A stretch of 42,880 nt of DNA from Sphingomonadaceae bacterium (lineage in GTDB: Bacteria; Pseudomonadota; Alphaproteobacteria; Sphingomonadales; Sphingomonadaceae): positions 1 through 42,880 of the forward strand of contig JAHDBR010000004.1 of the NCBI GenBank assembly GCA_020630295.1. The letters run 5' to 3'. The notes below the pieces were generated by a model that had not been told where the DNA came from, made no database searches, and saw only the letters and a program-made list of their open reading frames with translations. The position numbers and the translations under genes were made by a program. This document shows positions 4,148 to 23,827 of this stretch, piece after piece (within the stretch, counting starts at the first letter, position 1; each line of letters starts with the position of its first letter).

Positions 4148-5040
4148 CCGGCAAGCTCCACCAAAGAATCGACGCGCAACTAGACGCAGAAATACACCCA
4201 TCGGTTGCTGCATTTGCGGAAAGACTTGCGGTGTCCGCAGGGGCGGAAGCGGCGCTGTTTTACGGCTCCAACTTGCGCACTGGCGAATTGGAGGGCGTGC
4301 TCGATTTCTATTTGCTCCTGCCCGGCGCCCAGAAAGAGCGGATCTGGCCGCGTGTAAGTTATCATGAATGGGAATATGACGGCGTGACCCTGCGCGCCAA
4401 AGTGGCTTCCATGGCGCTGGAGACTTTTGAGCGCGCATCCTCAGGTAAATCGGTTGATACAACCATCTGGGCACGGTTCGTACAGCCCAGCGCTCTGGTC
4501 TGGTGCGGCGGCGCAGAAACGCGCGCGCGGGTAGTGGCAGCGATCGCATCGGCGGCGCAGACTGCGGCACGATTGGCTGCGGCACTCGGCCCGCAAGAAG
4601 GCCGGGCGGAAGATTTCTGGCGGGCCCTTTTTCAAGCGACATACAAAGCCGAATTTCGCGTTGAAAAGGCCGGGCGAGAGGATTCGATCCTGTCAGTGAA
4701 TCAGGCCCATTTTGACGGTTTATTACCGATGGCCTGGCACGCTGAGGGTGTCTCTTTCGGTCAAGAGGGAGATCGGCTGGCTCCGAAACTTAGCGAAAGC
4801 GGGCGGGCAGAAATACTGCGCTGGTGGCATGTACGCCAACGCCTCGGCAAGCCGTTCAATATTGTGCGATTGTTGAAAGCCAGCACCACATTTGAAGGCG
4901 CGGGGCGCTATGCAGCCTGGAAAGTCGAGCGGCATACAGGGGTAAGTGTGGAGGTGACCCCTTGGCGCGAAAAGCACCCGATTTTGTCCGCACCGGGCGT
5001 GCTGTTCAAAGTGTGGCGATCTCGCCGGCGCACCGGCTAA
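4144..5040 (+). CDS. Tam41-like nucleotidyltransferase (putative CDP-lipid synthase)
   Basis: Protein of 298 residues that would often be called hypothetical. It has a nucleotidyltransferase signature: YGSNLRTG at 40-47 followed by the acidic strand LDFYLLL at 53-59. The order of other blocks resembles mitochondrial Tam41 (phosphatidate cytidylyltransferase): TTIWARFVQP at 106-115 matches the Tam41 region that reads like GRLxKP. TYKAEFRVE at 166-174 followed by a SILSVNQAHFDGLL block matches the Tam41 pattern SYxGDxRM ... NIV ... F. No transmembrane spans are seen, unlike CdsA. The start overlaps the lipid kinase stop by four bases, so kinase product and this enzyme are likely consecutive: a phospholipid made by the kinase would be activated to a CDP-lipid. 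The assignment is from memory of the family pattern, not a search. Confidence 0.6.
   Translation: MTGKLHQRIDAQLDAEIHPSVAAFAERLAVSAGAEAALFYGSNLRTGELEGVLDFYLLLPGAQKERIWPRVSYHEWEYDGVTLRAKVASMALETFERASSGKSVDTTIWARFVQPSALVWCGGAETRARVVAAIASAAQTAARLAAALGPQEGRAEDFWRALFQATYKAEFRVEKAGREDSILSVNQAHFDGLLPMAWHAEGVSFGQEGDRLAPKLSESGRAEILRWWHVRQRLGKPFNIVRLLKASTTFEGAGRYAAWKVERHTGVSVEVTPWREKHPILSAPGVLFKVWRSRRRTG
5024..5037. terminator. Short hairpin at convergent gene ends
   Basis: GCCGG (5024-5028) and CCGGC (5033-5037) pair around CGCA, inside the last codons of the Tam41-like gene. The neighbouring minus-strand gene ends two bases after this gene's stop. The stem is only five base pairs and no T run follows, so a terminator role is weak. 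Confidence 0.25.
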
Positions 5041-5041
5041 A

Positions 5042-5539
5042 TTATAGATACTTCATGTTGATAGTGATCGAAGTGACCCCGTTGCCCACATTAAAGCGGG
5101 TTTTCTTGTAGCTTGGCTTACCCAAATTGAAGATGTTGATGCTCGGATTGTTGGACATACCGCCGCCATCGCTGGAAATGTCGGTCTTGCCATTGCCGTT
5201 TTTGTCGTGGCGGATAGCGATGCCATAAGTTCCGGGCGCCGAAACAGGAACACAGAACGTCATTGTGCCTGCTTTTGCATTTGCTTCGATCCGGCTTTGC
5301 CAACGTCCTTTTTGAAGCCAGTCAGCTTTGGTGCCCTTATAGCTTTGCACGCGCATTTTGCCGCTAGAACCTTCGATACCGCGTACCGTAACTTTTACCG
5401 CGGGCCCGGACGAAGCCGAGCATTTGCTCAGGTCATTACTGATCTTCTGCCGGTACTGACCGGCGGCAGGGACGGCAAAGATCATGCTGCCCGTTGCCAG
5501 CGCAATTGCCCCGGCGCCTAGAAGCTTTCTGGTCGTCAT
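5042..5539 (-). CDS. Secreted DUF2141-like protein
   Basis: Small exported protein of 165 residues. The N terminus is a signal peptide: positive MTTRK, then a hydrophobic stretch GAGAIALATGSMIFAV and a likely cleavage after PAAG. The mature part has a beta-rich pattern with two cysteines and the block AIRHDKNGNGKTD, typical of the DUF2141 family, where a calcium-binding-like DxNGNGxxD loop recurs. Function of the family is unknown. An ATG five codons upstream (5554) is in frame, but GAGAG lies just before the ATG at 5539, so I prefer 5539. The stop codon is only one base away from the stop of the convergent Tam41-like gene. Confidence 0.75.
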   Translation of the reverse strand: MTTRKLLGAGAIALATGSMIFAVPAAGQYRQKISNDLSKCSASSGPAVKVTVRGIEGSSGKMRVQSYKGTKADWLQKGRWQSRIEANAKAGTMTFCVPVSAPGTYGIAIRHDKNGNGKTDISSDGGGMSNNPSINIFNLGKPSYKKTRFNVGNGVTSITINMKYL

Positions 5540-5683
5540 AATTCTCTCATTCATGCGCGTGCCGCGCCTATCTGTTTCATATATTTGGACATGTAATCAA
5601 AGAATCACGCCCACTGATGTGCCTTAGAGATGCCGCAGATGCCCTTAATTGGGCCTGAATTGGTGATTTCATGGCAAAGAGCG

Positions 5684-7570
5684 TTACAAATCGTTACGCC
5701 CTTCTGACAGGCCAATGAATTGTGCCGCAAGAATGGCTCTGGGTATTGCGAGCATTCGCGGCCAGTCTTCTTCAATGTCGAAAGAAGGCGCATCGGGCCA
5801 ATTGCGAAGCAGATGCTCGACTCTGTCGATATCAATGACTTTTGCCAGAAAAGGGTGTCCGCGCATTGTGTCCAGCGCTTCGATCAACGTAACTCGCTGG
5901 CTACCGATGCGGGTGTGCCAGTCTATATTGTGCTGGCCGTAATTTGGGTTGAGGCGCTGCGCCTCAGGCAGTCTGCCTTTGGCCATAAGCCTAGCGAGCC
6001 GTCGCTCTTCCCCGCCAGACGCGAACTCTCCTGTCGGCAGCCCGATGCAGAATTCGATGAGCGGGCGATATGCGGTGACGTCGCGTTTCTGAATGCCGTA
6101 TAGCTGCTGGAATGCCAGATCGACATCGGCCCCAAGCCCGTCCGCAGCGTGATGATCGTGCATAGCGGCTTCGATCCGGCTGCGGGCGAAGGTGAAGTCT
6201 TCCCAATCCGATTGCGAACCACGTCTGCGCGCGCGGTCTGATTGAGCAGCGCGGGCATCGTCTGCAAGCGGCGTAAGCAGGGCGAGCATATCTCTTCTTT
6301 GCGGATGCATTTTCGCACGGATTGCCGCGCGTAGCCGTACTGGCAGCATGGGCAATATGGAGAGAGCAGACAATTTGCGCCACATAGGCCGTGCATCGCC
6401 GGGGCGGGCATCCAAAAGGCGGAATAGCTCGGCCCACTGGCCGCTGCGCGCATATTCGATATAGGCCCAGCGGCCGTCGCTACTGAAGCTTTGATTGGCA
6501 AGATCAGCCGTCAACAAGGTGCCGCAGCCCAGCTCTTTGGCTTTGGAGTACACCCCGTGATACATTCCTACATTCGCCAAGCCCGGCGCAAAAATGCGCA
6601 TCGCCCGCATCATATCGCGGGACCGGAAGTCAAACCCTGCCTGTGACGGATCCGATACGTGCATATCAATGCGTGGATGCATGGCCGCAAATTCACGCAC
6701 CAAGGGCAATTCGTCACCCATTATCCCGGGCGCGGTTACGCCCGGCCAGTCCGGGTGAGGGCCAAAGCTGATTGTTTTGAGGCGTTCTGTGACCGGCAAT
6801 TGATCAAGCAGGCATGTGGCTGCAAGCGAGGAATCTAGACCTCCGGAAAGGGCCAGCGCGGGGCGTTTGCCGGAGTGCAAACTGTGCTTCGCGGCTTCTT
6901 GCAACAGGTCTAACGCCTTGTGGGCTGCTTCGCCGTCCTCGAGTTCCTGCTGGCGGGGTATATCTGCAACCGAGTACCACCGGTCTACTTGTACTGTTTT
7001 GCGCCCGAGTTTGACGATGCTCCCCATCGGAACCTTGCGGATGCCGTGATAGAGGAATGCGTCATCACCGTCGCGAAAGTCGTAAGCAAGCTGGTCAACG
7101 ACATAGTCGTAATCCAGTTTCTCGGGCACGCCTGCCACAAATAAAGCGCGGAGCAGCGGGGAGACGGCTGCAAATCCTGCATTATTTGCATAATAGAGCG
7201 GCGGGGCCGACCAAGGCGAGCGCGAGAGCCGCAATCCGCCATCTTTGCTGCACACGATAGCAGCATAACTCCCTATTAGGGACCGTTCAGCTGCGTCCCC
7301 CCAACAATCTATAGCGGCCATGTAGAGCGCCGCATGATTTTCAGGGTCCGTTCCGGTCAGGCGGGAAATTTCGGGCGCATTGTCGATCCAGCCGGAAAAA
7401 GCGCAATGTTTCCCTGTGCTGCCTGAGGCGATCGAGGGAGCGTATAAGCGGGTATTACCGTCCGTAACTTCCTGAATACGGTCCGACCCGGCGGTTCCGA
7501 ATGCAGAAAGTGCACCGGATATGTCACCTTTGGGAGCAGCTCCATCCCAGGAGTGCCAAGCCGCAATCAC
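5684..7570 (-). CDS. Asparagine-synthase-like protein, putative lasso peptide macrolactam cyclase
   Basis: Protein of 628 residues with the two-domain layout of asparagine synthetase B and lasso cyclases (McjC type). The N-terminal half resembles a class II glutaminase domain but has no cysteine at position 2, so it cannot use glutamine as AsnB does. The C-terminal half holds the ATP pyrophosphatase loop SGGLDSS at 242-248. Family knowledge: such enzymes adenylate an Asp or Glu side chain of a peptide and join it to the core N terminus. The start is a GTG; an in-frame TGA three codons upstream rules out a longer protein. It lies 21 bases after the short precursor gene and in the same direction as the PqqD-like gene, which supports a RiPP role rather than asparagine synthesis. 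Confidence 0.82.
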   Translation of the reverse strand: MIAAWHSWDGAAPKGDISGALSAFGTAGSDRIQEVTDGNTRLYAPSIASGSTGKHCAFSGWIDNAPEISRLTGTDPENHAALYMAAIDCWGDAAERSLIGSYAAIVCSKDGGLRLSRSPWSAPPLYYANNAGFAAVSPLLRALFVAGVPEKLDYDYVVDQLAYDFRDGDDAFLYHGIRKVPMGSIVKLGRKTVQVDRWYSVADIPRQQELEDGEAAHKALDLLQEAAKHSLHSGKRPALALSGGLDSSLAATCLLDQLPVTERLKTISFGPHPDWPGVTAPGIMGDELPLVREFAAMHPRIDMHVSDPSQAGFDFRSRDMMRAMRIFAPGLANVGMYHGVYSKAKELGCGTLLTADLANQSFSSDGRWAYIEYARSGQWAELFRLLDARPGDARPMWRKLSALSILPMLPVRLRAAIRAKMHPQRRDMLALLTPLADDARAAQSDRARRRGSQSDWEDFTFARSRIEAAMHDHHAADGLGADVDLAFQQLYGIQKRDVTAYRPLIEFCIGLPTGEFASGGEERRLARLMAKGRLPEAQRLNPNYGQHNIDWHTRIGSQRVTLIEALDTMRGHPFLAKVIDIDRVEHLLRNWPDAPSFDIEEDWPRMLAIPRAILAAQFIGLSEGRNDL

Positions 7571-7591
7571 GCCGGATCAATCACGCGGATT

Positions 7592-7714
7592 TCAGGATTT
7601 TCGGTTACTTGCATCCTGAGCGACAGGCACTGGACGGCCCGCAACATCAGAAATCGTCCCAATGCGCTGAAGCACGGGCTTTTTCCATTTTTCCGTAGTC
7701 TTCGTATCAGCCAT
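7592..7714 (-). CDS. Putative lasso-type RiPP precursor peptide
   Basis: A 40-residue peptide between the PqqD-like and cyclase genes. Its leader fits the known lasso pattern YxxPxLxxxG: here it reads WKKPVLQRIG, with tryptophan for tyrosine. The stretch after it is TISDVAG, then RPVPVAQDASNRKS. If the core begins at the glycine, Asp is residue 9; if it begins at the arginine, Asp is residue 8. Both fit the 7 to 9-residue ring of lasso peptides. The usual leader threonine at -2 is missing (alanine or valine, depending on register). ATG at 7714 has a weak GGA eight bases ahead; an upstream in-frame ATG at 7735 has none. The core is short, about 14-15 residues, with no aromatic plug residue. 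Confidence 0.6.
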   Translation of the reverse strand: MADTKTTEKWKKPVLQRIGTISDVAGRPVPVAQDASNRKS

Positions 7715-7789
7715 TTGTTGTATCCAATAGGGCATTGAAGCACGATTATTAGCGCAATTCGGAGAATTTTGCAATTGCAGTTCACCGTA

Positions 7790-8050
7790 TTAGTCTATCA
7801 GGCCAACACTTTTTACATCGGCTAGAAATTCTTCGACATCTGCCACTGCGGTCTGTTGGTCAATGCCGTACTGATCGCAAATTTCTGCAACAATTTGCTC
7901 TTCGCTGCGGCTGCCGTCAATCAGACGCCAGATGGCAAGGCCGCTGCCTTTGACCGAGTATAAATGTCCGGTTTCGAGAGCGACGATGATTGTCTCATCG
8001 TCGACATCGGTTTCGATCAAGTCGCTCCTGGATTTACGGATTGCGTGCAT
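7790..8050 (-). CDS. PqqD-family RiPP recognition protein (lasso B1-like)
   Basis: An 86-residue PqqD-like protein. The pattern of the family is present: ALETGHLYSVKGSGLAIWRL in the first half, then a helix region ending VEEFLADVKSVGLID. In RiPP systems this winged-helix domain (RRE) binds the leader peptide and brings it to the modifying enzyme. It stands alone rather than fused to a B2 transglutaminase-like peptidase, and I find no B2 gene beside it. The precursor starts 75 bases downstream. No Shine-Dalgarno sequence precedes the ATG, and the promoter seen at 8058-8085 would start transcription almost at this ATG, so the mRNA may be leaderless. A TTG inside the gene preceded by AGGAG is a less likely start. 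Confidence 0.8.
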   Translation of the reverse strand: MHAIRKSRSDLIETDVDDETIIVALETGHLYSVKGSGLAIWRLIDGSRSEEQIVAEICDQYGIDQQTAVADVEEFLADVKSVGLID

Positions 8051-8057
8051 AACAATG

Positions 8058-8093
8058 CTTATATGGTGGTCCGCAGATCAATCAATCCACCAT
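8058..8093 (-). promoter_or_regulatory. Promoter of the RiPP cassette with embedded operator
   Basis: On the minus strand TTGATT (8085-8080) and TATAAG (8063-8058) are separated by 16 bases, a good sigma-70-like pair. A perfect 7-bp inverted repeat, ATGGTGG (8093-8087) and CCACCAT (8069-8063), encloses the -35 box and touches the -10 box, as expected for a repressor site. Predicted transcription would begin near 8051, at the PqqD-like start codon. Confidence 0.5.
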
Positions 8094-8198
8094 CTGTAGA
8101 GGTGTATCGGACCTCCGATGTGGAAAAGCGTGTCCGGCGCGCTTGTGGGGCAGACTCGCGGCTTCTAGGCGATGTGATAGGCAACAAGAGCACCACCA

Positions 8199-8873
8199 AT
8201 GGCCCACCAGCAGGCATTGCCGCTGATTTCTCCATCAATTCTTTCTGCCGACTTCGCTCGGCTGGGTGAGGAGGTGCGCGCAATCGACGAAGCTGGATGT
8301 GACTGGATCCACGTTGACGTGATGGATGGTCATTACGTCCCGAATATCACCATCGGTCCGGCTGTAGTGAAGGCTTTGCGCCCGCACACTGACAAGCCTT
8401 TCGATGTGCATTTAATGATCAGCCCCGTCGATGCCTATCTGGAACAATTTGCCGAGGCCGGTGCTGACATAATCACTATCCATCCCGAAGCCGGCCCGCA
8501 TACGCATCGCACGCTTCAGGCTATTCGCGCGCTAGGCAAAAAGGCCGGTGTCGTCCTCAATCCGGGCACACAAGTTGAATCGCTCGATTACCTGATTGAT
8601 CTGGCTGATCTGGTCTTGGTAATGAGCGTGAACCCCGGTTTTGGCGGGCAAAGCTTCATTGATAGCCAGCTGCGCAAGGTCGAAGCGATCCGCGCCTTGA
8701 TCGATCAGACCGGCCGCGAAATCCATTTGGAAGTCGATGGCGGGGTAAATCCGCAAACAGCCCGGCAATGTATTGCCGCCGGTGCCGATGTGCTGGTTGC
8801 CGGCTCTGCAACTTTCAAAGGCGGGCCTTCACAATATGCAGCAAATATCGCGGCATTGAAGGGCGGCCAGTGA
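8199..8873 (+). CDS. rpe: Ribulose-phosphate 3-epimerase
   Basis: Pentose phosphate enzyme interconverting ribulose 5-phosphate and xylulose 5-phosphate, 224 residues, normal length. The TIM-barrel landmarks are all present: [13 protein letters not shown] at the N terminus, [17 protein letters not shown] with the metal-binding His and Asp, HLMI, the [13 protein letters not shown] loop, and [11 protein letters not shown] near the end. The start has AAGAG nine bases upstream. The stop codon shares one base with the ATG of the next gene, so the two are coupled. It is divergent from the RiPP cassette. Confidence 0.96.
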
Positions 8874-10768
8874 TGGGCGAGGCGGTTACCGAAACACGGA
8901 CCGCCAGTAATGCGGCCATCGATGAGGGCGCGGCCACCGATAGCGCTTTGCCGATGGAGAATGCGGTTGATGGCGGTGATCCGCTAATCATCGAAGATCC
9001 GACCTCACGGTCTGCCAAGCGGGAGACGTTGGAGCCTGGCCGTTCATTGGTCATCGGTGATTTTGCCCCGCCTTCGATCAGTGCGGGCGAAAAATTGATC
9101 CGGCTTGCCTACCGTTTGGGGGTTCCTGCATCATCTCTAAGTTCGCCATTCGCAAAGTCGGTCAAGCCGCGTTTACTAGGGACGGTCGAGACTCCGTATA
9201 TCGGTAACCGCGCTGCTGGCGTGGCATTGCGTGCCGGACATTTTCAGGTCCACGGCGTGAAAGCGCCCATCGCGCAAATGGATTTCGCCGGAAGTGCGCG
9301 CCTTACTCCGCCATTCGAACGCGTCATTCACGGTTTCACATGGCTGCGTGATCTTGCGGCGTCTGCTCCACGTGAACAATGCACCTCGACTGCAGAGCGG
9401 GTGATGAATGCGTGGTTTGATGCCAATGCACGTAAAGGCACGTCCAAGATGGGCCGCGGTACTGCATGGAATGTCGAGCACGTCGGCCACCGCCTGCTGA
9501 ATTGGCTGGTCCATGCTCCGCTTATTCTATCAGGCTCCGCAGAACAGCGCGGCTTTACCTTGGAAGTTATGTCCGAGACTGCCCGGTGGTTAGACCGGAA
9601 TGTGTCTAAAGCTGCCGACCGTCAGGGCGAAGTCGCTGGTTGGACTGCTATCGTTGCCGCTGGCCTGTTGTTGCCGGAAGGTAAGCCGCGCCGGCTGTTT
9701 GGTGAGGCAGGTCTGATGCGTGCGCTTGGAGAATTGGTGGCGGATGATGGCGGTGTGCTGTCCCGCAATCCGCTTGCGCAAATTGATGCAATTGCAATGC
9801 TTGTCGATTTGCGTGCGTGCTACAATGCGTGTGACCGCGATGCGCCGGAATCCTTGGAAGCCATGCTCCAATTGCTTGTCCCGCCTTTGCTCACCCTGAT
9901 CCATTCGGATGGCTCGCTGGGGAATTGGCAGGGGGCGGGGGCTGTGCGCGCTGACCGGCTGGCGGCGCTTATTGATGCAAGCCGCGTTCGGGCCCGACCG
10001 CTCAAGGATGTGCGCCAATGGGGTTACCAGCGCGTAGCGGTTAACAAGACTACGCTGATGTTTGACGCGGCCCCGCCTGCATTGTCCCGCCACTCGCGTT
10101 CGGGTTGCGCGTCGACTCTGGCGTTCGAGCTGTGCGCGCGCGGGCAGCGGATCATCGTAAATTGCGGCGGCGCAGCCTTTGCTGGCGGACAAGTGCCAGC
10201 GCGTATCGAACAGGGTTTGCGCGCGACGGCGGCGCATTCCACGCTCACGCTGGATGATGCCAATTCGACCGCAGTGCATATTAACGGCAAGCTCGGCGCC
10301 GGGGTCAGTGAAGTTGAGATCGACCGGAAGACGATGGAGCTGAAAAACGGCCTCGCCACCCGTTTGGAAGCCAGCCATGATGGCTATGCAGCACGGTTCG
10401 GCCTGCTGCACCGCCGTGTTCTCATCATGCGGGACGACGGTAGCGAACTTCGCGGCGAAGACTTGCTGGTACCTGTTGGCAAAAAGGGCAAGCGCGGTAA
10501 AATCGCCATGGCAATCCGTTTCCATATCGGCCCTGGCGTCGAGCTGGGCTTGTCTGAAGACAAGAAGGGGGCCGGACTCGCCTTGCCCGACGGCACCTAT
10601 TGGCAATTCCGCATGGCGGGCGTGGAGACAGACGCCAAATTGACCATTGAGGAAAGTATGTGGGTTGACGGCGGGGGCCGTCCGCAGCCTGTCCAGCAAC
10701 TGGTAATTCAAGGCATGACATCGCGCGGCGGGGGTAGTTTCTCCTGGTTGCTCAAGAAAATGGGATAG
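8873..10768 (+). CDS. Heparinase II/III-family protein
   Basis: Protein of 631 residues with the two-part heparinase II/III layout: an alpha-helical toroid in the N-terminal two thirds and a beta-sandwich region at the C terminus. The latter shows AHSTLTLDDANS and HDGYAARFGLLHRRVL, both typical of this family. Members cleave acidic polysaccharides by elimination, but many bacterial chromosomal copies next to purH have no known substrate. No signal peptide is evident; the first 50 residues are polar and low in complexity. A longer frame opens at 8768 inside rpe, but the ATG at 8873 follows AAGGGCGG and overlaps the rpe stop by one base, so I use it. purH starts nine bases after the stop. Confidence 0.85.
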   Translation: MGEAVTETRTASNAAIDEGAATDSALPMENAVDGGDPLIIEDPTSRSAKRETLEPGRSLVIGDFAPPSISAGEKLIRLAYRLGVPASSLSSPFAKSVKPRLLGTVETPYIGNRAAGVALRAGHFQVHGVKAPIAQMDFAGSARLTPPFERVIHGFTWLRDLAASAPREQCTSTAERVMNAWFDANARKGTSKMGRGTAWNVEHVGHRLLNWLVHAPLILSGSAEQRGFTLEVMSETARWLDRNVSKAADRQGEVAGWTAIVAAGLLLPEGKPRRLFGEAGLMRALGELVADDGGVLSRNPLAQIDAIAMLVDLRACYNACDRDAPESLEAMLQLLVPPLLTLIHSDGSLGNWQGAGAVRADRLAALIDASRVRARPLKDVRQWGYQRVAVNKTTLMFDAAPPALSRHSRSGCASTLAFELCARGQRIIVNCGGAAFAGGQVPARIEQGLRATAAHSTLTLDDANSTAVHINGKLGAGVSEVEIDRKTMELKNGLATRLEASHDGYAARFGLLHRRVLIMRDDGSELRGEDLLVPVGKKGKRGKIAMAIRFHIGPGVELGLSEDKKGAGLALPDGTYWQFRMAGVETDAKLTIEESMWVDGGGRPQPVQQLVIQGMTSRGGGSFSWLLKKMG

Positions 10769-23742: not shown

Positions 23743-23827
23743 GCGGGTGTGGCGGAATGGTAGACGCCGGGGACTTAAAATCCCCTGATCATTGATCGTG
23801 CTGGTTCGAGTCCAGTCACCCGTACCA
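23743..23827 (+). tRNA. tRNA-Leu(TAA)
   Basis: An 85-base class II tRNA with long variable arm. Acceptor GCGGGTG pairs with CACCCGT (first pair G-T). The anticodon arm is GGGGA, CTTAAAA, TCCCC, so the anticodon is TAA. The T arm is GCTGG, TTCGAGT, CCAGT, and CCA is encoded at 23825-23827. It lies between ihfB and the PilZ gene. Confidence 0.95.

Follow-up and report, generated by a model that had tools for sequence, protein, structure and literature searches.

How can a lasso-type gene cassette mature its peptide when no leader peptidase is encoded beside it? This question is raised by a 42,880-nucleotide stretch of a Sphingomonadaceae bacterium (GCA_020630295.1, contig JAHDBR010000004.1, positions 1 to 42,880; hereafter the window, meaning the whole stretch analyzed), on the minus strand of which a PqqD-like recognition protein (B1), a 40-residue precursor peptide (A) and an asparagine-synthetase-like cyclase (C) are encoded in this order. 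From comparison with related genomes, we consider it likely that this cassette supplies the recognition, precursor and cyclase functions of a split pathway for a lasso-type ribosomally synthesized and post-translationally modified peptide (RiPP), with the B2 leader peptidase acting in trans. The unexpected part is a glutamine at core position 8 (Gln8), the ring-acceptor position. Judged from the aligned precursors, glutamine at this position across the family is an unusual feature, absent from the original prediction made for this DNA.

In the proposed pathway, B1 would bind the leader motif WKKPVL, the unlinked B2 would cut after Asp-Val-Ala and so free Gly1, and C, with ATP, would activate a core side chain and join it to the Gly1 amine, giving a ring of 8 or 9 residues. 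The C-terminal Ser, which is conserved, may be modified by a nucleotidyltransferase (N), and export of the product may fall to an ATP-binding cassette (ABC) protein. Genomes, contigs and loci are given below by G, C and L numbers.

Leader peptidase outside the cassette

The assembly of the window genome comprises 2.44 Mb in 88 contigs and is 99.85% complete. A search of the whole genome with PF13471, following the suggestion of the original prediction to look for orphan B2 genes, gave one match, on contig C11; since this match is the only one, the window holds no B2, as had been predicted for the locus. The C11 protein was recognized as a lasso B2 by the NCBIfam model NF033537 (57.1 bits; cut-off 33), and its likely catalytic Cys and His are each kept in 66 of 67 aligned B2s. 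Its gene adjoins a convergent nucleotidyltransferase gene (N; PF14907, 178.8 bits) and an ABC transporter gene, both missing from the window cassette, and genes of these two kinds can be carried by lasso clusters (PMC9266682, PMC10368454). On this evidence from sequence, the B2 of the predicted window pathway is unlinked, not missing.

Of 298 family genomes, 62 gave a match in the cyclase search, in many cases a weak one, and weak matches outside the clade described here were left unclassified. In the cyclase tree (39 rows) the family forms one clade with support of 99/100, and the comparison of homologous neighborhoods, also proposed with the original prediction, placed the cassette beside rpe in 31 of the 32 fetched clade loci, window included (the exception is G274), some of them with a local B2. 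In rpe-site relatives, e.g., G060, G036, G119, G255, and G026, B2 sits between B1 and the precursor and cyclase genes, and it therefore belongs to the pathway.

A B2 within about 10 kb was taken as local, including those of G065 and G135, which lie some 6-9 kb off, past a lipid-kinase gene. By this measure, 17 cassettes among the 298 family genomes, which make up the B2-less part of the 32-row cyclase clade, have no local B2. Each of these 17 genomes has a B2 at another place, whereas B2 is present in 73 of the 236 genomes that gave no cyclase match (Fisher p 8e-9). Left out of the 17 were G169, which is outside the clade, and G082, a 66% complete genome whose cyclase and B2 genes fall on separate short contigs; in both, as assembled, B2 lies elsewhere than beside the cyclase. 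G181, with a weak match (E 4.5e-12), was the only one of the 62 cyclase-match genomes without B2. Furthermore, a precursor search across 396 genomes of the order yielded 40 positive genomes, all of one family. B2 is present in all 21 new ones; 14 of them have it at a distance from the cassette and six have it locally, and G503, where precursor and B2 stand at the ends of different contigs, stays unclassed. Within genus g78 (60 genomes), B2 occurs in 23/23 precursor-bearing genomes, on another contig or more than 600 kb away, vs. 21/37 precursor-free ones (p 9e-5). G146 has neither precursor nor B2.

The cyclase tree holds at least five changes between presence and absence of a local B2 on well-supported branches, gains and losses not being distinguished. 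According to this tree, cassette and B2 have parted or joined repeatedly, with B2 in the genome each time. The claim that an unlinked enzyme removes the leader is supported by these co-occurrences and by the B2 in the genome itself, and neither a leader-retaining product nor a new RiPP type, both deduced from the absence of B2, finds support. The original prediction had named, as a finding that would refute it, a B2 gene at another site pairing with the locus in related genomes; this was encountered as strict co-occurrence, functional pairing being no part of this outcome.

Alternatively, a general host protease or aminopeptidase might cut the leader, and the unlinked B2 would then serve other lasso sets. 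Pseudomycoidin, going by the title of a paper only, is reportedly made without a leader and a leader peptidase, and was raised in favor of this explanation. Moreover, out-of-cluster proteases mature other RiPPs, as described in part of a published account (PMC10885120), and two members of the window genus, G222 and G179, have B2 close to a different lasso set. However, host proteases would not predict the complete co-occurrence of B2 with B2-less cassettes (17/17 and 23/23), which holds even in G058, G239, and G490, where a canonical lasso cyclase search (E up to 1e-6) found only the rpe-site cyclase-like gene. We regard leader removal by a host protease as quite improbable.

In the B2 phylogeny (67 rows), one branch separates the cassette-local B2s from the 25 solitary B2s, the window B2 and the B2s of five members of its genus (G179, G222, G037, G259, and G291). 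The B2 of the sixth genus-mate, G120, is placed on the opposite side, and its gene lies beside a cyclase-like gene of its own. In addition, the unlinked B2 of G274 pairs with a local B2 (96/91), that of G092 stands among local B2s on a long branch, and in G002, G158, and G096 another B1- or cyclase-like gene is near the unlinked B2.

At the 25 loci of solitary B2s, including L056 (9642-10085), the neighboring gene is 85-100% identical to an acyl-CoA dehydrogenase; a single protein of this kind was checked and has matches to PF02771, PF02770, and PF00441. At 4 of the 25 an acetate-CoA ligase gene lies on the other side. This arrangement spans several Sphingomonadales genera, and 7 of the 25 genomes are without an rpe cassette.

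Several observations weigh against a split pathway with B2 in trans. The count of a single B2 rests on an assembly in 88 contigs, the support of the branch that sets the window B2 apart (89/99) is under the 95 mark, and the Fisher tests take related genomes as independent, so that the p values overstate the case. On the NCBIfam lasso cyclase model NF033535, C reaches 57.4 bits against a cut-off of 525, under which canonical cyclases likewise fall (L055, 237.9 bits; L072, 259.5 bits). A solitary B2 also occurs without an rpe cassette in G104, G564, G569, G576, G586, G588, and G592; among these seven genomes, cassette relics remain in G586, G588, and G104, the last of which has a canonical-type cyclase near, and the site is empty in the other four. 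Finally, B2 accompanies a different lasso set in G222 and in G179, and the window genome itself has a second set, so that B2 there could serve only those sets.

This second lasso-type set (L072, G000:C12:1001-20000, 4547-9977) encodes a precursor with the core GMVGPDDDEDFDGSLS and Asp8 (7721-7945, minus strand), a 664-amino-acid cyclase, a PqqD protein, a 2OG-Fe(II) oxygenase and a weak HprK-kinase match below the cut-offs. Assignment of its asparagine-synthetase gene to an exosortase locus was considered and rejected, given that the Asp8 precursor, the PqqD gene, the weak HprK-like match and the cyclase (NF033535, 259.5 bits) stand together. The window genome hence has two lasso-type cassettes and its sole B2 on C11, and the relative G222 has three such cassettes and one B2. 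Probably, the C11 B2 also serves the C12 cassette. In a Pontixanthobacter comparison, a cluster set of B2, nucleotidyltransferase, sulfotransferase, PqqD and asparagine-synthase genes was described (PMC10040529), which, as far as that part of the paper goes, resembles the B2-linked set of G222. One B2 apparently serving two or three lasso-type cassettes would allow direct tests of leader-peptidase specificity in environmental bacteria that are in culture.

Precursor family and ring closure

Gene A is located at 7592..7714 on the minus strand and encodes 40 amino acids, although its start codon is uncertain: the upstream reading frame is uninterrupted as far as a TTG at 7774 and includes one further in-frame ATG on the way, and leader motif and core are identical whichever start is taken. 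Compared with G179 of the same genus, the last 32 codons, stop included, differ by 13 synonymous and 5 non-synonymous codons. Because leader motif and core recur in relatives and synonymous changes are in excess, this frame is, on sequence criteria, a real gene; the possibility that it is not conserved, which the original prediction had allowed for, did not hold (33-row alignment, 61 distinct sequences).

The leader motif WKKPVL (7670..7687, minus strand), of the [Y/W]xxPx[L] type, was delimited by alignment of 33 precursors, in which the family leader takes the form WxxPxLxxxGxxxD(V/I)A, with W and P invariant and L kept in at least 90%. Position -2 is Val or Ile and not Thr, the window leader having Val(-2). 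Cleavage is predicted after DVA from the register of the alignment, and would release the core GRPVPVAQDASNRKS (7595..7639, minus strand), in which Gln8 (codon CAG, 7616..7618, minus strand) is directly followed by Asp9 (codon at 7613-7615, minus strand).

With a leader-only pattern and a core length of 10-30, 61 distinct leader-plus-core sequences were gathered, and removal of the C12 precursor of the window genome, which has Asp8, left 60 distinct cores. At core position 8, which is near-invariant across the precursor family, these have Gln in 53, Glu in four, and Ser, Pro, and Asn in one each, the Pro8 and Asn8 cores having Gln at position 9; over 500 core shuffles, the count of no single residue in columns 1 to 12 went above 26/60. 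Loci fetched by the precursor profile are biased towards Gln8, and the 50 cores that came (or also came) from loci L002-L099, L179-L241 or the window comprise 43 with Gln and four with Glu. As many as 38 of the 60 cores contain no Asp or Glu at all, e.g., GPPVPFAQAAGNKRS of Qipengyuania nanhaisediminis CGMCC 1.7715 (L183) and GPSGFGSQGGPNSKS of Q. aquimaris JCM 12189. Counted from the leader W, core position 8 corresponds to the Asp column of the canonical distant relatives L225 and L227, and Asp stands one place later in L206, L208, L211, L213, and L226, the last with Gln8-Asp9 like the window. These seven loci were outside the core count as misfits to the pattern, together with L219 (Gln8, no acid) and L210, L212, L216, and L220 (other leaders), and several loci of the wider set of cyclase relatives gave no precursor. 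L225, L226, and L227, from uncultured Pseudomonadales and Gammaproteobacteria, have cyclases of 27% identity and precursors with SHQD, and L040 (G015) has tandem precursors in one cassette, at 7302-7427 (no acid) and 7505-7630 (Asp9).

Other precursors of the same genomes keep their acids, with Asp8 in the C12 precursor of the window genome and, in G222, Glu8 at L242 and Glu at position 9 or 10 at L055, according to the Gly taken as first; Gln8 is therefore a trait of the peptide family and not of the organism.

Since Asp9 is present in the window core, an ordinary lasso with a Gly1-Asp9 ring is possible there, and Gln8 might owe its conservation to something else, e.g., to being recognized by C. 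We see this as a serious possibility, if somewhat short of an even chance; Asp or Glu occurs at positions 7-9 in 19 of 61 distinct cores, and the distant relatives with Asp9 (L206, L208, L211, and L213) and with Gln8-Asp9 (L226) are in keeping with it. Acid is nevertheless absent from the 38 cores, so that Asp9 cannot serve as a general rule for the family.

A second explanation is that the product is not a lasso, C joining other groups (e.g., the C-terminal Ser carboxylate and the N terminus) or forming an unthreaded ring. The acid-free cores would fit, since the C terminus is their only carboxylate, as would the C-terminal Ser of 60 of 61 sequences and the shortness of some cores, down to 12 residues. 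However, position 8 is the most constrained of core positions 1-12 and lies in the lasso acceptor register, for which closure at the C terminus would not account, and the C-terminal Ser is already known as the tailoring site of paeninodin-like lasso peptides in the relevant part of the literature (PMC9266682). We consider a non-lasso product unlikely.

Thirdly, this clade of lasso-type cyclases might close the ring on the side-chain amide of Gln8 rather than on an Asp or Glu carboxylate. PP-loop enzymes other than C adenylate ureido or amide carbonyls. In this proposal, C could adenylate the amide oxygen, for attack by the Gly1 amine to give a cyclic amidine, or could catalyze transamidation, or Gln8 could be deamidated beforehand. 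Closure on Gln8 is put forward tentatively, as rather doubtful. If true, acid-free cores such as that of Q. nanhaisediminis would yield macrocycles of a new sort, from enzymes until now believed to require a carboxylate, and with Gln8 as acceptor the catalytic repertoire of lasso cyclases would be wider than known.

In open-access titles and abstracts, neither glutamine in the acceptor position nor the sharing of an unlinked B2 among lasso clusters was found to be reported, which is weak evidence, as subscription papers and bioRxiv are mostly outside that coverage. Published precursor mining has asked for Gly1, an aspartate as eighth or ninth core residue and a threonine close to the point of cleavage (PMC7533575, in part); such criteria, as given there, would miss most members of the Gln8 family, and so would the requirement of a B2 within the cluster.

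Cassette genes and their surroundings

B1 (7790..8050, minus strand; 86 amino acids) matches PF05402 with 68.9 bits (cut-off 23.4), and its top NCBIfam models are lasso PqqD chaperones, with scores under their cut-offs. C (5684..7570, minus strand; 628 amino acids, GTG start) matches PF00733 with 40.6 bits (cut-off 21). The order B1-A-C on the minus strand was as had been predicted, and so were the flanking genes rpe (PF00834) and DUF2141 (PF09912); of the predicted extent, 5684-8093, the genes were correct but not the limit, the features ending at 8050.

An AlphaFold2 model of C from a 32-row alignment reached a predicted local distance difference test score (pLDDT) of 94.2. Its best structural match was TsnB9 (Z 27.9, 3.1 A over 511 residues), beside beta-lactam synthetase (Z 25.9, 3.2 A over 446 residues) and AsnB (Z 25.4, 3.5 A over 451 residues), and the modeled protein has the asparagine synthetase/beta-lactam synthetase fold. 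The lasso-like reading of the original prediction is supported, and the prediction as a whole partly so. The PP-loop ATP-pyrophosphatase motif SGGLDSS (6827..6847, minus strand) is intact, G244, D246, and S247 being invariant in 39/39 aligned cyclases. The Cys of an N-terminal Met-Cys is the residue of the glutaminase site, and because none of the eight alignment rows that reach the N terminus starts with Met-Cys, a working glutaminase site in C appears unlikely. Thr513 occurs in 30 of 32 clade cyclases, with Asp there in 5 of 7 outside the clade; it was rejected as a cyclase change that tracks Gln8, since Thr is also found in the two aligned members with Glu8 and thus marks the clade, not Gln8. 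As a lone query against the genome contigs, the window cyclase confirmed no relative, and relatives were obtained by scanning with the cyclase alignment.

Decay of the cassette into a remnant without product would be suggested by the relics in G586, G588, and G104 and by the lack of an ABC gene adjoining the window cassette, vs. an ABC match adjoining the cyclase in 25 of 32 clade loci. Against this, C is open over 628 amino acids with its ATP motif intact, synonymous change prevails over non-synonymous change in A, and the cassette is intact in several genera; we hold decay to be very improbable. The relics lie between rpe and DUF2141 (L252 of G588, L263 of G586, and L265 of G104) and consist of ABC transporter fragments, joined in G588 by the start of B1; in G104 only an ABC gene with a long open frame is left.

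No HprK-like kinase gene lies next to the window cassette, whose neighbors are rpe and DUF2141. Promoter and terminator patterns were not in excess over the shuffled mean. Transfer RNA genes were found with Rfam at 23743-23824 and at 1-50, the latter cut by the window start.

Comparison with known systems

Among the known systems closest to the window pathway as here proposed, i.e., a cassette with its B2 in trans, are paeninodin/pseudomycoidin-type clusters (B1, B2, C, kinase, and nucleotidyltransferase); separate B1 and B2 proteins and an AsnB-type C are common to both (PMC9266682). The PF14907 nucleotidyltransferase beside the unlinked B2 and the conserved C-terminal Ser are also of this type, and in L047 and L051 the genes beside B1 resemble HprK kinases, under the Pfam cut-off. 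Unlike these clusters, as partially described in that source, the window pathway has B2, N, and the ABC gene on another contig, Val(-2), Gln8, and no kinase in the cassette.

The Bradymonas bsf lasso cluster likewise has Ile/Val at -2, separate B1 and B2 and an N gene, and Ile/Val(-2) leaders were reported there for Sphingomonadales precursors too (PMC10368454). Unlike in the window, its ring acceptor is Asp8 and its B2 is in the cluster, and "Gln" is absent from the main text of that paper. Metanodin is a lasso peptide that also has an unusual ring residue, but, in the published portion considered here, this is the first residue (Asn), and an aspartate forms the ring (PMC12670498).

Regarding leader removal from outside the cluster, unlinked peptidases are known in other RiPP classes, such as AplP, SflL, and TldD/E (PMC10885120). 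These act out of cluster as is proposed here, but, within what that account covers, they belong to other RiPP classes and are metalloproteases; in the window pathway, the candidate unlinked enzyme is instead a lasso-specific B2.

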